Below, one piece after another: positions 40,918-51,438 of a DNA stretch of 64,000 nt. Made by a program: the position numbers and the translations under genes. The first letter of the stretch is position 1. Each line of letters begins with the position of its first letter. Under the pieces are notes generated by a model that ran no database searches, was not told the DNA's origin, and was given only the letters and a program-made list of their open reading frames with translations. Source of the stretch: Mucilaginibacter rubeus (GTDB taxonomy: Bacteria > Bacteroidota > Bacteroidia > Sphingobacteriales > Sphingobacteriaceae); the NCBI RefSeq assembly GCF_014643835.1, contig NZ_BMKD01000002.1, forward strand, positions 744,001 to 808,000, read 5' to 3'.

Positions 40918-42126
40918 ATGGTTAAAAAACTACATGGGAAAATCGCTCAGTTTCAAGTAGCAAATATGCTGCGTGAACGGGGGTTATATCCTTATTTCAG
41001 GCCTATTGAGTCTGCACAAGACACTGAGGTAATTATTGACAACAAGCGGGTATTAATGTTTGGTTCTAACTCATACTTAGGCCTTACCAATCATCCAAAA
41101 ATCAAAGAAGCTTCAAAAAAAGCAATTGACAAATATGGCACAGGCTGTGCCGGTTCACGTTTTTTGAACGGCACACTTGATATCCACATTGAGCTTGAAA
41201 ACAGGCTTGCTAACTATGTAGGCAAAGAAGCTACTGTTTTATTCAGCACAGGTTACCAGGTTAACCTTGGTGTACTTTCGTGCGTTACCGGCCGGAATGA
41301 CTATATCATACTTGATGAGTATGACCATGCCTGTATCATTGACGGCAGCCGCCTGTCGTTTTCAAAAGTGATCAAGTACGCCCATAACGATATGGCCGAT
41401 TTGGAGCGCAAATTAAGCATACTTCCTGAAGATGCCGTGAAGATTATCGCTGTTGACGGTATTTTTAGCATGGAAGGCGACATTGTTAAATTGCCTAAGA
41501 TTGTTGAGCTTGCCGATACTTACGGTGCCAATATCATGGTTGATGATGCCCACAGCCTTGGTGTAATTGGTGATAAGGGTGCAGGTACCGCCTCACACTT
41601 TAACCTTACCAATGAAGTTGACCTGATCATGGGTACCTTCAGTAAATCATTAGCCTCGTTAGGTGGTTTCATCGCCAGCGATCAGGATACTATTGATTAT
41701 ATCAAACACCGCGCACGTTCATTGATGTTTAGCGCAAGTATGCCTCCGGGCTCTGTAGCCAGCGTGATTGCCGCATTAGATATCATTGAATCAGAACCGG
41801 AGCGTATCGAGAAATTATGGGATAACACCAATTATGCCATGAAACTTTTGCTGGAAGAAGGCTTTGACCTTGGCCCTACCGAAAGCCCTATTTTGCCGAT
41901 CTACGTTCGTGATAACGAAAAAACTTTCGCGGTTACCAAACACCTGCAAGCTTCAGGTGTATTTGTTAACCCGGTTGTATCCCCTGCCGTTCCTTCCGAT
42001 TCGTCACTGCTTCGTTTCTCATTGATGGCTACCCATACCTTTGAGCAAATTGACGAAGCCGTTGAAAAACTGTCAAAAGCCTTTAAAGAAGTTGGTGTAA
42101 CCGCTTCTGTTAAAGAAAAAATATAA
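40918..42126 (+). CDS. spt: Serine palmitoyltransferase (alpha-oxoamine synthase family)
   Basis: 402 residues, PLP alpha-oxoamine synthase fold: [51 protein letters not shown] with His137 stacking on [14 protein letters not shown], and the PLP lysine Lys243 in [12 protein letters not shown]. The family also holds KBL and BioF; the soluble Bacteroidota SPT and the following bCerS-like and CerR-like genes decide for SPT, which condenses serine with palmitoyl-CoA or acyl-ACP to 3-ketosphinganine, the first committed sphingolipid step. A hairpin with T-tract follows at 42141-42181. Confidence 0.92.
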
Positions 42127-42140
42127 TGAAGAAACCTGAG

Positions 42141-42190
42141 GTGCATTTAGCTGCTTTTTAATTAAGGTAAGCTAAATGCACTTTTTATTT
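42141..42190 (+). terminator. Intrinsic terminator or attenuator between spt and the ceramide-synthase gene
   Basis: GTGCATTTAGC (42141-42151), 19-nt loop, GCTAAATGCAC (42171-42181), then TTTTTATTTT. It would end or reduce transcription between two genes of the same pathway. Confidence 0.78.
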
Positions 42191-42230
42191 TAAAGCATAC
42201 CAATTTGCTTTATTCAATCATTTACCACAC

Positions 42231-43349
42231 ATGATTACAATAGTAACGGTTAAATCAAAAAAAGAACTGGCTTCGTTTATTGATTTCCCGCATGACCTGT
42301 ACAAGGACGATCCTTACTATGTTCCGGAGTTGTTTATTGCCCAAAGGGACCTCTTAACCAAACATCCCTTCCATAAACACAATACCGTACAACCCTTTTT
42401 AGCTTATGATGGCGATAAAATTGTTGGCCGGATAGCCGCGATCCTTAATAACGGCCATAACGAATACAGCCACGTTAACGATGGCTTTTTTGGCTTTTTT
42501 GATTGTATTAACGATACGGCGGTATCTAACCTGCTTTTTGAAACCGTTACCAAATGGCTTAAAGAAAAAGGCGTTACCGGCAAATTATTAGGCCCTACCA
42601 ACTTTTCAACCAATGAGCCTTGCGGTTTATTAATAAAGGGATTTGATAGTTCACCGTTCCTGATGAACACCTATAACTTTGCTTATTACGCTAATCTGGT
42701 CGAAAATTTTGGTTTTGCTAAAGATGTCGATCTGATTGCCTGGCACTGGGACGGACAAGCTTATGATGATAAATCAGTACGTTTATTAAACGCGCTTGAA
42801 GAGCGGTTAAAGCGAAACGATATAGTTATTCGTAAGATCAACCTTAAAAATTTCAAGGAGGAAGCCGCCAAACTGCGCGAAGTGTATAACTCAGCATGGG
42901 ACAAAAACACCGGTTTTGTGCCCCTGACCAACGAAGAGTACGATTACCTGGCCAAAGATCTTAAACTGATCCTTGATCCCGATTTTGCCATCGTGGCCGA
43001 GCAACGTGGCAAGATAGTTGCATTTGGCCTGGCCCTGCCCGACTATAATGACATCTTCAAAAAAATAAAACGCGGTCGGTTGTTGCCAACCGGTATTTTC
43101 AAATTACTGTTCGGCAAAAAAAGCATTACCGGTATCCGTATTTATGCCCTCGGTGTTATTGAAGATTACCGCAAAATGGGTATCGAGGCCTGTTTATATG
43201 GCACCATCATAAAGGAATATAAGGCCAAGGGTTATAAACATGCCGAAGCCGGCTGGACACTGGAAAACAACGACATGATGAACCGTGCCATTGAAGCCAT
43301 AAAAGGCGATCCTTATAAAAAATACAGGTTATATCAAAAAGCGATATGA
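42231..43349 (+). CDS. Bacterial ceramide synthase-like acyltransferase (bCerS type, GNAT fold)
   Basis: 372 residues. Resembles the bCerS family defined in Caulobacter: DPYYVPELFIAQRDLL, VGRIAAILNNGHN, GFFGFFDCINDT, LLGPTNFSTNEPCGLLIKGF, the mid-part DKNTGFVPL and GIRIYALGVIEDYRKMGIEA, the last as acyl-CoA-binding GNAT segment. bCerS N-acylates 3-ketosphinganine to oxidised ceramide. The gene order spt, bCerS, CerR is as in bacteria where the pathway has been shown. Its stop overlaps the next start (ATGA). Assigned by pattern and context; substrate chain length unknown. Confidence 0.82.
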   Translation: MITIVTVKSKKELASFIDFPHDLYKDDPYYVPELFIAQRDLLTKHPFHKHNTVQPFLAYDGDKIVGRIAAILNNGHNEYSHVNDGFFGFFDCINDTAVSNLLFETVTKWLKEKGVTGKLLGPTNFSTNEPCGLLIKGFDSSPFLMNTYNFAYYANLVENFGFAKDVDLIAWHWDGQAYDDKSVRLLNALEERLKRNDIVIRKINLKNFKEEAAKLREVYNSAWDKNTGFVPLTNEEYDYLAKDLKLILDPDFAIVAEQRGKIVAFGLALPDYNDIFKKIKRGRLLPTGIFKLLFGKKSITGIRIYALGVIEDYRKMGIEACLYGTIIKEYKAKGYKHAEAGWTLENNDMMNRAIEAIKGDPYKKYRLYQKAI

Positions 43350-49696: not shown

Positions 49697-49876
49697 TTAG
49701 GCTTAAGACTTAGCAACAAATATCATATCTTCGTAACAATAAAATAAAGGCATTTACGCTTAGCAATATCTTTGCTAAAATTGCCTTTTGCTGGTTTAAG
49801 GCCAGCCATTCTGAACAATTTTAACACCATAAACAGGCAGAGAGATCGTAAAACATTTTAAACCCTGATTATAACA

Positions 49877-50500
49877 ATGAAAAAGAAATATATATCCAAC
49901 TCGCAGGAATCGGTGCGAATGTTTAAGAGCGACTTTTTAGAAGGCTTATCAAAGGTACACTATACCGTACCTCTATATATTTTTGTACCCGTTATTGGAT
50001 ATTGCAGCTATAAATTCTTTGACCTGGGATTGGATGTATTAACATATCTTGGCCTGTTTATTTTCGGCCTCTTCATCTGGACTATCACCGAATACATCAT
50101 GCACCGTTTTGTTTTCCACTATCAGCCAAGCGAAAAACTGGAATGGGCACAACGTCTGCATTTTATCATGCATGGCGTGCATCATGATTATCCGAGCGAT
50201 GCCAAACGTTTGGTATTGCCCCCGTCATTAAGCATTCCGCTGGCTACAGGCTTTTTCTTTTTGTTTAAATGGTTATTGCCTGTAAACTACATCTGGGGCT
50301 TTTTTCCGGGCTTTATTTTAGGTTACCTGTTTTATGATATATCGCACTATGCCATGCACCATTTTAATTTTAAAAGCGGGCTGTTCAAAAAAATAAAACA
50401 ACACCATATGCTGCACCACTACCAGGATCCTGAAAAAGGCTATGGTGTGAGTTCACCTTTCTGGGATAAAATTTTCCGTTCAGATTTCTTAAAAAAATAG
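49877..50500 (+). CDS. Fatty acid hydroxylase superfamily protein, probable ceramide/fatty-acyl hydroxylase
   Basis: 207 residues, four hydrophobic segments and the His clusters of membrane di-iron hydroxylases: HRFVFH (76-81), HFIMHGVHH (95-103), HYAMHH (157-162) and HHMLHH (176-181), with HYQDPEKGYGVSSPFWD after. These resemble yeast Scs7/FA2H, which 2-hydroxylate the acyl chain of ceramide. Placement between the inositol-phosphate transferase and the IPC-synthase-like gene makes ceramide hydroxylation the best guess. It is 2 nt from the following gene. Confidence 0.87.
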   Translation: MKKKYISNSQESVRMFKSDFLEGLSKVHYTVPLYIFVPVIGYCSYKFFDLGLDVLTYLGLFIFGLFIWTITEYIMHRFVFHYQPSEKLEWAQRLHFIMHGVHHDYPSDAKRLVLPPSLSIPLATGFFFLFKWLLPVNYIWGFFPGFILGYLFYDISHYAMHHFNFKSGLFKKIKQHHMLHHYQDPEKGYGVSSPFWDKIFRSDFLKK

Positions 50501-50502
50501 CA

Positions 50503-51438
50503 ATGACCAATGCCAATACAGGCGTAACAGTAAATATCCGGTCGATAATTATTGTTTCGTTGCTTTCCATTGCTTACCTGGCGTTTTCAACTTTCCTTAT
50601 TGGTTATAAACCAGACGAGCTTACGCTGGTAGTTATTTTCAATGTGCTGTTCTATGCATCGGCAATAACACGCAAGTTTATATTGGGCTTCACTATTTTC
50701 ATAGTGTACTGGATTGTTTTTGATTACATGAAAGCCTTCCCCAATTATAACTACAACCCGGTACATATTGCCGAGCTTTATAATGCAGAGAAACGCCTGT
50801 TCGGCATTCATTTTAACGGCAAGCTGCTTACACCTAACGAATACTGGCTGGCCAATAGCAACACTTTTATTGATGTGTTATCGGGTTTATTCTATTTATG
50901 CTGGATCCCCGTGCCGCTGGGTTTTGCCGCTTACCTGTTCTTCAAAAACAAAAAACAGTTCCTCAATTTTTCGTTAACGTTTGTTTTGGTGAATATCCTG
51001 GGCTTTATAGTTTACTACGCCTACCCTGCCGCACCACCCTGGTTTGTTCAATATCACGGATTTCATTTTATTCCGTTAACCATGGGCAATACCGCCGGGC
51101 TGGCCAGGTTTGACGCCTATTTTCATGCCGGGGTTTTTAAAGGGATTTATACAAAAGGTTCAAACGTGTTTGCTGCCATGCCGTCGCTGCATTCGTCATA
51201 CCCGGTTATAGTGCTTTACTACGGCTTAAAAAACAAGCTGGGACTTGCTAATATCTTTTTTGCGGTGGTAACCGTTGGCATCTGGTTTACGGCGGTATAT
51301 GCAAGCCACCACTACGTGCTCGACGTGTTAGCCGGTATCACTTGTGCGGCATTAGGTATTGCCTTATACAATGTACTGTTAAAAAAAATCCCGGGTTTGC
51401 AGTCTGCTTTAAATAAATACCAAAGGGTAATCTCGTAG
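50503..51438 (+). CDS. PAP2 superfamily membrane protein, probable inositol phosphorylceramide synthase
   Basis: 311 residues with about six membrane segments. PAP2 motifs: MPSLHSSYP (His230), SHHYVLDVLAG (His270, Asp274), preceded by YAYPAAPPW, a Pro/aromatic motif that resembles the one in AUR1-type IPC synthases. By analogy with the Bacteroides inositol-lipid cluster it would transfer phosphoinositol from phosphatidylinositol to ceramide. Last gene of the sphingolipid region, coupled to the hydroxylase gene; it could instead be a phosphatase, the activity missing from the locus. Confidence 0.82.
   Translation: MTNANTGVTVNIRSIIIVSLLSIAYLAFSTFLIGYKPDELTLVVIFNVLFYASAITRKFILGFTIFIVYWIVFDYMKAFPNYNYNPVHIAELYNAEKRLFGIHFNGKLLTPNEYWLANSNTFIDVLSGLFYLCWIPVPLGFAAYLFFKNKKQFLNFSLTFVLVNILGFIVYYAYPAAPPWFVQYHGFHFIPLTMGNTAGLARFDAYFHAGVFKGIYTKGSNVFAAMPSLHSSYPVIVLYYGLKNKLGLANIFFAVVTVGIWFTAVYASHHYVLDVLAGITCAALGIALYNVLLKKIPGLQSALNKYQRVIS

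Follow-up and report, generated by a model that had tools for sequence, protein, structure and literature searches.

What lipid would a run of eight genes in Mucilaginibacter build, and is their coming together peculiar to one genome or shared by its relatives? The genes in question occupy positions 40918-51438 of a 64,000-nucleotide stretch of Mucilaginibacter DNA (M. rubeus, contig NZ_BMKD01000002.1; this whole stretch is called the window below), whose nearest relative is M. gossypii. All are on the + strand, and in order they encode a serine palmitoyltransferase (SPT), an N-acyltransferase of the GNAT fold, a CerR-like SDR protein, a myo-inositol-phosphate synthase (MIPS), a DUF5686 protein, a phosphatidylinositol-phosphate synthase (PIPS), an Scs7-like hydroxylase and an AUR1-like PAP2 protein. 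A preliminary description of this DNA had seen seven enzyme-like genes and one outer-membrane gene running in one direction, and our check against the list of open reading frames (ORFs) bore this out, with all eight ORFs at the positions given in Table 1 and their families matching.

Our reading, to which we would give a probability of roughly 85%, is that this locus builds a hydroxy-acyl dihydroceramide phosphoinositol, that is, an inositol phosphoceramide (IPC), the product being likely the 2-hydroxy-acyl form. We favour it because of the family scores, the structure matches of SPT, MIPS, PIPS and the Scs7-like and AUR1-like proteins, the synteny of the GNAT gene, a gene order kept in 114 of 114 loci, the occurrence of PgpA in 24 of 24 genomes, the genetics of the Bacteroides BT1522-1526 operon and low dN/dS ratios. 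That homologous operon has genetic data on IPC (PMC9246714, PMC8791184), and ceramide phosphoryl-myo-inositol has been reported in a related genus, in Sphingobacterium spiritivorum (Naka 2003, as cited in PMC9246714). We regard the finding as sound: the pathway itself is known, and its arrangement here is new, unusually complete and well conserved. No description of the locus was present among the matches listed by literature searches for inositol sphingolipids or the gene set in Mucilaginibacter, Pedobacter and Sphingobacterium.

Gene families, order and conservation are what was observed, and from the named families we infer the reactions. SPT would join serine and acyl-CoA into 3-ketosphinganine, which the GNAT enzyme would N-acylate and the SDR enzyme would reduce at its ketone. 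PIPS would carry out the coupling to CDP-diacylglycerol, and a single, unlinked PgpA would take the phosphate off the resulting phosphatidylinositol phosphate (PIP) to leave phosphatidylinositol (PI). The Scs7-like enzyme would hydroxylate the amide-linked acyl chain, probably at C-2, and the AUR1-like synthase would move phosphoinositol from PI to the ceramide. The locus thereby offers a testable, gene-by-gene route to a eukaryote-like (yeast-like) lipid class in Mucilaginibacter and its order.

To describe how widely this arrangement is shared, PIPS was sought at the cut-off of family NF052561 in 296 genomes sampled across the phylum and in 250 genomes of the order. It was exceeded in 9 of the former and 109 of the latter, giving 114 genomes since 4 stood in both lists. 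The loci around all 114 matches (L001, L114-L121 and L124-L228) were read over at most 20 kb, some being cut by contig ends; 5 of them (L115, L117 and L119-L121) came from the phylum sample alone. In all 114 the members present lie on one strand and in one order, namely SPT, GNAT, CerR, MIPS, PgpA, GtrA, DUF5686, PIPS, DUF4833, hydroxylase and IPC synthase. Such agreement is far beyond chance, and a chance assembly of unrelated genes was rejected on this count. A second set, the 80 best SPT relatives in named genomes (L001-L080), belongs to Mucilaginibacter or, in 4 of the 80, to 'Bacteroidetes bacterium', and the locus is kept there apart from gene losses and contig ends.

Single components were found in the 114 PIPS loci as follows: SPT 106, GNAT 102, CerR 83, MIPS 101, PgpA 63, GtrA 72, DUF5686 110, DUF4833 97, hydroxylase 107 and IPC synthase 113. 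All eleven occur in 38 loci, the gene set of the window in 8 (L001 included) and the six core enzymes together in 94; among the five loci from the phylum sample alone, 2 hold all eleven and 2 only the five genes of the Bacteroides type. The window locus lacks the PgpA, GtrA and DUF4833 genes, all three of which belong to the fuller set, and has no intact gene between MIPS and DUF5686 or between PIPS and the hydroxylase. The preliminary description had proposed that this genome joins two modules, and had suggested a comparison of gene order in relatives. That comparison showed one order throughout. The modules are joined here, but the joining is not the work of this genome, and a recent join was rejected, given that the six core enzymes stand together in 94 of 114 loci. 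Ceramide-backbone and inositol-headgroup genes thus stand together in Mucilaginibacter and its order, contrary to a remark in PMC11334938 (2024, citing Stankeviciute 2022) that places spt, cerS and cerR at a distance from one another in Bacteroidota; the loci read here do not bear that remark out.

Purifying selection acts on all eight genes. Their proteins are 95-100% identical to the counterparts in L001, and dN/dS against four relatives lies between 0.011 and 0.080 (finite estimates); 4 of the 32 comparisons were too saturated in dS to yield a ratio, and dS is above 1 in many of the rest, which makes these figures approximate.

Concerning the ceramide backbone, SPT passes the Bacteroidota family NF047600 (748.2 bits against a cut-off of 640) and matches the PDB serine palmitoyltransferases 8guh/3a2b at about 5e-185. 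The GNAT gene follows SPT in 78 of the 80 loci of the best SPT relatives, the other 2 stopping at or soon after SPT. No match to the GNAT protein was found in the PDB up to E 1, nor in NCBIfam; tblastn found relatives over at least 80% of its length in 44 plasmid records. In the 4 of these 44 plasmid regions that were opened, an SPT-type aminotransferase is encoded near the relative, accompanied by an acyl carrier protein (ACP), an SDR/epimerase and/or a fatty acyl-AMP ligase. The GNAT protein is 32-37% identical, over nearly its full length, to N-acyltransferases of proteobacterial SPT clusters and 32% identical to the one on a Sphingomonas plasmid. The window CerR is 26% identical (116 bits, nearly full length) to an epimerase-family protein of one such cluster, a homology that gives weaker support than the other assignments have, SDR families being large. 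These plasmid neighbourhoods correspond to the ceramide genes of Proteobacteria, so the best reading of the GNAT and SDR proteins is a bacterial ceramide synthase (bCerS) and a ceramide reductase. In 6 of 20 PIPS-negative genomes of the order SPT also exceeds its cut-off; the GNAT gene adjoins it in 6 of 6 and CerR comes next in 5 of 6, only some 4 kb having been read for most of these.

The naming of the proteobacterial set follows PMC11324152. Compared with the spt/bCerS/cerR genes of Caulobacter (among five structural genes, PMC11324152), the window has the SPT, GNAT and SDR homologues adjacent but no ACP or acyl-AMP ligase beside them, and its linked hydroxylase is Scs7-like, whereas that paper describes the acyl hydroxylase of Caulobacter as a DesA-family protein encoded away from spt. 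Two separate observations may be recorded here. Of the loci L001-L080, 21 (L014, L037, L048, L049, L054, L057 and 15 more) have no cerR in its usual place ahead of MIPS, after the GNAT gene. An E. coli plasmid record (L283, 5983-7125) encodes YghO, a full-length relative of the GNAT ceramide synthase; yghO adjoins a set of aminotransferase, ACP, epimerase and fatty acyl-AMP ligase genes, and from this neighbourhood the record seems to carry a ceramide-type gene set.

Turning to the headgroup, MIPS matches the PDB inositol-3-phosphate synthase 7nwr at 8.7e-168. PIPS passes NF052561 (412.1 bits against a cut-off of 350) and matches PDB PIPS structures at 2.6e-21, and 196 of the 197 homologous ORFs in the loci retrieved, redundant copies counted, carry the CDP-alcohol transferase motif D..DG..AR..G...D...D. 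For the PAP2 protein the only PDB matches up to E 1 are yeast AUR1 (9vj3, 1.4e-14; 9ivc, 1.9e-14). Among its homologues PSLH is found in 181 and HHYxxD in 179 of 188 ORFs (redundant copies included), which we take to be motifs of AUR1-like IPC synthases. By homology and motifs the protein belongs to the AUR1-like family, and the transfer of phosphoinositol from PI to ceramide is predicted for it. The preliminary description had named the placing of the GNAT-like or PAP2 proteins in other families as what would undo its reading; this did not occur, the former giving full-length matches to SPT-cluster N-acyltransferases and the latter matching, within the PDB, AUR1 only.

Among known systems, the BT1522-BT1526 operon of B. 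thetaiotaomicron (PMC9246714, PMC8791184) shares with the window the grouping of MIPS, PIPS and IPC synthase, and with the fuller relatives also PgpA and GtrA in the order MIPS-PgpA-GtrA-PIPS-IPC synthase; L119 and L121 hold, among the families searched, just these five Bacteroides-type genes. In contrast to that operon, the window adds SPT, ceramide synthase, reductase, hydroxylase and DUF5686, and lacks the PgpA and GtrA genes (PgpA is unlinked in M. gossypii, and only a gtrA-like remnant is left). The SPT of B. thetaiotaomicron is given as BT_0870, far from BT1522-BT1526 by locus number (PMC9246714). An alternative Bacteroides/Prevotella inositol cluster is described as NTP transferase, CDP-alcohol transferase and HAD hydrolase (PMC9246714). 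It is resembled by L265, where a CDP-alcohol transferase, HAD hydrolase, LPG_synthase_TM and DUF4833 stand together, and not by the window locus, which has neither NTP transferase nor HAD hydrolase and whose CDP-alcohol transferase is of the PIPS type. Among PDB entries, yeast proteins come closest to the last two enzymes: the IPC synthase is nearest to AUR1 and is a small single protein, and the hydroxylase, likewise small and single, matches the membrane part of Scs7 only.

In Bacteroides the PIP made by PIPS is reported to be dephosphorylated by BT_1525 (annotated PgpA) before IPC synthesis (PMC9246714). Here the preliminary description was only partly right in calling the locus near-complete: the enzymes that it named are present, but it missed this PIP phosphatase step. 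The locus has no PgpA gene, and M. gossypii carries its single copy on another contig. We compared 24 PIPS-bearing genomes, hand-picked to represent both kinds (PgpA inside the locus or elsewhere), with 20 PIPS-negative genomes of the order, those heading the list of 141. PgpA was found exactly once in all 24, by coordinates 12 times inside the locus and 12 times elsewhere, and in none of the 20, of which 6 encode SPT. PgpA thus tracks PIPS and not sphingolipid synthesis as such. With one copy per genome in the 24 and none in the 20, a second PgpA serving phosphatidylglycerol was rejected. This co-occurrence speaks for PgpA acting as the pathway's PIP phosphatase outside Bacteroides as well.

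Several observations weigh against the IPC reading or parts of it. cerR was not seen in 31 of the 114 PIPS loci, some of them cut by contig ends, and a search at E 1e-40, run with no positive control, found none in 14 of 14 genomes with a cerR-less locus; taken together, these suggest that the reductase is replaceable or that the order of steps differs. That cerR has merely relocated was set aside on the same 0 of 14, a result weakly shown for want of that control, and a remnant just before MIPS beat the best of 10 shuffles in only 4 of the 14 cerR-less loci. The genomes in the PgpA comparison are related, were chosen by hand (24) or taken as first listed (20 of 141), and are counted with kinship ignored. 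The PAP2 protein misses the cut-off of NF052609, the equivalog family of phosphoinositol dihydroceramide synthase (326.4 bits against 480), for which reason we call it AUR1-like and not a member of the equivalog. This shortfall would suit a general lipid phosphatase, in which case there would be no IPC and the locus would make ceramide and, separately, PI. Such an outcome appears very improbable to us, seeing that AUR1 is the sole PDB match, that PSLH and HHYxxD are kept as counted above, that the gene is present in 113 of 114 PIPS loci and that a Bacteroides mutant in BT1522 is reported to have negligible IPC (PMC8791184).

The hydroxylase, too, could act elsewhere than proposed, namely on the sphingoid base (at C-4, as in phytoceramides) of the same backbone. 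The PF04116 superfamily holds both kinds of hydroxylase, and the window protein lacks the N-terminal, cytochrome b5-carrying part of Scs7. On the other hand, Scs7 is its only strong PDB relative (4zr1, 2e-31; 4zr0, 4e-31), residues 18-201 of its 207 aligning with residues 187-369 of the 392-residue Scs7 chain. Of its 14 histidines, 13 are invariant across 180 homologous ORFs, redundant copies counted, and by the histidine boxes of the di-metal site and this alignment it belongs to the Scs7/FA2H family. We therefore consider hydroxylation of the sphingoid base rather unlikely and, because of the similarity to Scs7, hydroxylation at acyl C-2 probable. Sphingobacterium sphingophospholipids are said to carry 2-hydroxy acyl chains.

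DUF4833, GtrA and DUF5686 provide the freshest lead from these loci: they may be accessory factors for bacterial phosphosphingolipids, possibly with a part in export. In 49 of the 114 loci (in none of L001-L080) the PIPS frame runs on through a hydrophobic stretch into a DUF4833 domain, a fusion that places a domain of unknown function in a named pathway. In 8 further loci of the order that were opened (L253-L260) DUF4833 is fused to a fatty-acid hydroxylase, one case being confirmed by Pfam. DUF4833 follows a CDP-alcohol transferase and GtrA in five phylum-sample loci (L267-L271). L279 has it at the end of a cluster of SPT, GNAT, DUF5686, hydroxylase, a CDP-alcohol transferase of another type and GtrA, and the 11 kb read there include no MIPS, PIPS or IPC synthase; that cluster probably yields a phosphosphingolipid with another headgroup. 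Stand-alone copies of DUF4833 start with a stretch that by eye resembles a signal peptide, so the protein should be periplasmic. A profile search gave DUF4833 no PDB match up to E 1, and a literature search found no paper under its name. As an aside, the fusion in L253 is followed by a sigma-70 region 4 protein, FecR and a CarboxypepD/STN protein.

From these contexts, DUF5686 and, in relatives, GtrA and DUF4833 are most likely accessory factors, for moving lipid across the envelope. GtrA and DUF5686 would then be two further candidates for how bacterial sphingolipids reach the outer membrane. Loss of the GtrA-like BT1524 in Bacteroides is reported to lower IPC and raise PI (PMC8791184), a phenotype that would fit the flipping of PI to a periplasmic IPC synthase. 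Although speculative and on balance doubtful, it is tempting to picture a dedicated route from the inner to the outer membrane for phosphosphingolipids or their PI donor in Bacteroidota, serving headgroups other than inositol as well: the periplasmic DUF4833 might be tethered by fusion to the synthesizing enzyme, GtrA might flip PI towards the periplasm, there to be used by the AUR1-like synthase, and DUF5686, a presumed outer-membrane barrel, might receive or insert the product. Conversely, the three could be bystanders kept by operon position. Among 12 stand-alone DUF4833 loci opened in genomes without PIPS over the cut-off (L261-L272), 6 (L261-L264, L266 and L272) show no CDP-alcohol transferase among the few neighbours examined; DUF4833 occurs in 67 of the 141 PIPS-negative genomes of the order besides 94 of the 109 PIPS-positive ones (M. 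gossypii is among the 15 without); and species of the window type lack GtrA and DUF4833 in the locus yet keep the enzymes. We think bystanders unlikely all the same, in view of the two kinds of fusion, of the linkage in L279, of a DUF5686 gene lying two genes from DUF4833 in L263 and of the BT1524 phenotype.

The coordinates of the genes and of further features of the locus are collected in Table 1. For DUF5686 the ATG at 46296, which stands before the signal peptide and was chosen by eye, is most likely the start, and not the TTG at 46209; the GNAT and cerR-like genes overlap by 4 nt.

Table 1. Features of the Mucilaginibacter sphingolipid locus (window coordinates).
Feature	Position	Strand	Support
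Serine palmitoyltransferase (spt)	40918..42126	+	NF047600 748.2 bits; PDB 8guh/3a2b
Bacterial ceramide synthase-like N-acyltransferase (GNAT fold)	42231..43349	+	PF00583; homology to SPT-cluster N-acetyltransferase
SDR-type ceramide reductase (cerR-like)	43346..44332	+	PF01370; homology to SPT-cluster epimerase-family protein
myo-Inositol-phosphate synthase (MIPS)	44366..45688	+	PF07994+PF01658; PDB 7nwr
Intrinsic terminator-like hairpin, then T run	45711..45754	+	-23.3 kcal/mol, z -5.93
gtrA-like stretch, read as remnant	46027..46122	+	tblastn 40.8 bits
Hyperconserved element, candidate second-unit promoter	46033..46079	+	26-nt box 46033-46058 + TACCTTTG at 46072-46079
DUF5686 protein (presumed outer-membrane) with CarboxypepD_reg domain	46296..48860	+	PF18939 205.6 bits, PF13715
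Phosphatidylinositol-phosphate synthase (PIPS, BT_1523 type)	48890..49630	+	NF052561 412.1 bits; PDB PIPS structures
DUF4833 gene remnant, two collinear pieces with internal stops	49694..49865	+	25.4 + 26.2 bits
Conserved island in DUF4833 remnant, candidate regulatory site	49718..49733	+	
Scs7-like fatty-acid (ceramide) hydroxylase	49877..50500	+	PF04116; PDB Scs7 4zr1, 4zr0
Inositol phosphoceramide synthase (AUR1-like PAP2_3)	50503..51438	+	PF14378; PDB AUR1 9vj3, 9ivc

A terminator-like hairpin with T run after MIPS is found in 14 of 16 relatives of the window type, in 9 of 30 PgpA-bearing relatives and in 1 of 80 shuffles, and its stems vary in sequence between relatives yet remain paired. 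Given this terminator, the window set is not one transcription unit and would fall into two, spt-cerS-cerR-MIPS before it and DUF5686-PIPS-hydroxylase-IPC synthase after it. The window form appears to result from the departure of pgpA and the decay of both gtrA and the DUF4833 gene. For the DUF4833 remnant, none of 60 shuffles reached 26.2 bits (maximum 21.9; reversed control 23.5), and this remnant stops 11 nt before the hydroxylase gene. The gtrA-like stretch scored well above the maximum of 24.3 bits in 40 shuffles and the 26.6 of the reversed control. For PgpA, the gaps of the locus gave 17.7 bits, below the shuffle mean, so it has left no trace there.

Plain decay does not suffice for the gtrA-like stretch: most of its match proved to be a hyperconserved DNA element, so recent loss cannot by itself account for its having been kept. 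The element consists of TTTGACTTTTTGACCACAWTAGTCTG with, 11-14 nt on, TAnnTTTG, which we take to be the Bacteroidota -7 consensus. Its box is identical but for one A/T position when the window and 16 relatives of the same kind are aligned; with at most 4 substitutions it occurs in 54 of the loci L001-L080, TAnnTTTG following in 53 of the 54, and with at most 3 mismatches it occurs once each in 6 of 8 genomes searched and not in the other 2. In some species it sits inside an intact gtrA; in others it comes after pgpA or stands in non-coding DNA. Its simplest reading is a candidate promoter or operator that originated inside gtrA and persisted once the gene was gone. A same-codon test gave 87% against 54% in 9 gtrA genes, a circular result as these were chosen for holding the element, and a weak 0.58 against a median of 0.49 in all 22 gtrA genes of L001-L080. 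A generic sigma-70 scan showed no excess of sites (27, against 31.1 in shuffles).

A comparable island is seen in DUF4833, where, over all 34 stand-alone genes of L001-L080, stretches within codons 135-164 agree in codon in about 0.8 of comparisons, the median over the scan windows being 0.47; three N-terminal windows were higher on few comparisons, and the best window in fused genes reached 0.63. Positions 49718-49733, within the DUF4833 coding sequence, are retained upstream of the hydroxylase gene after the loss of DUF4833. Finally, at 34713-40546 of the window, genes for a divergent RND efflux pump, a membrane fusion protein and a TolC-like protein adjoin SPT, and they are kept in most of the 80 loci.

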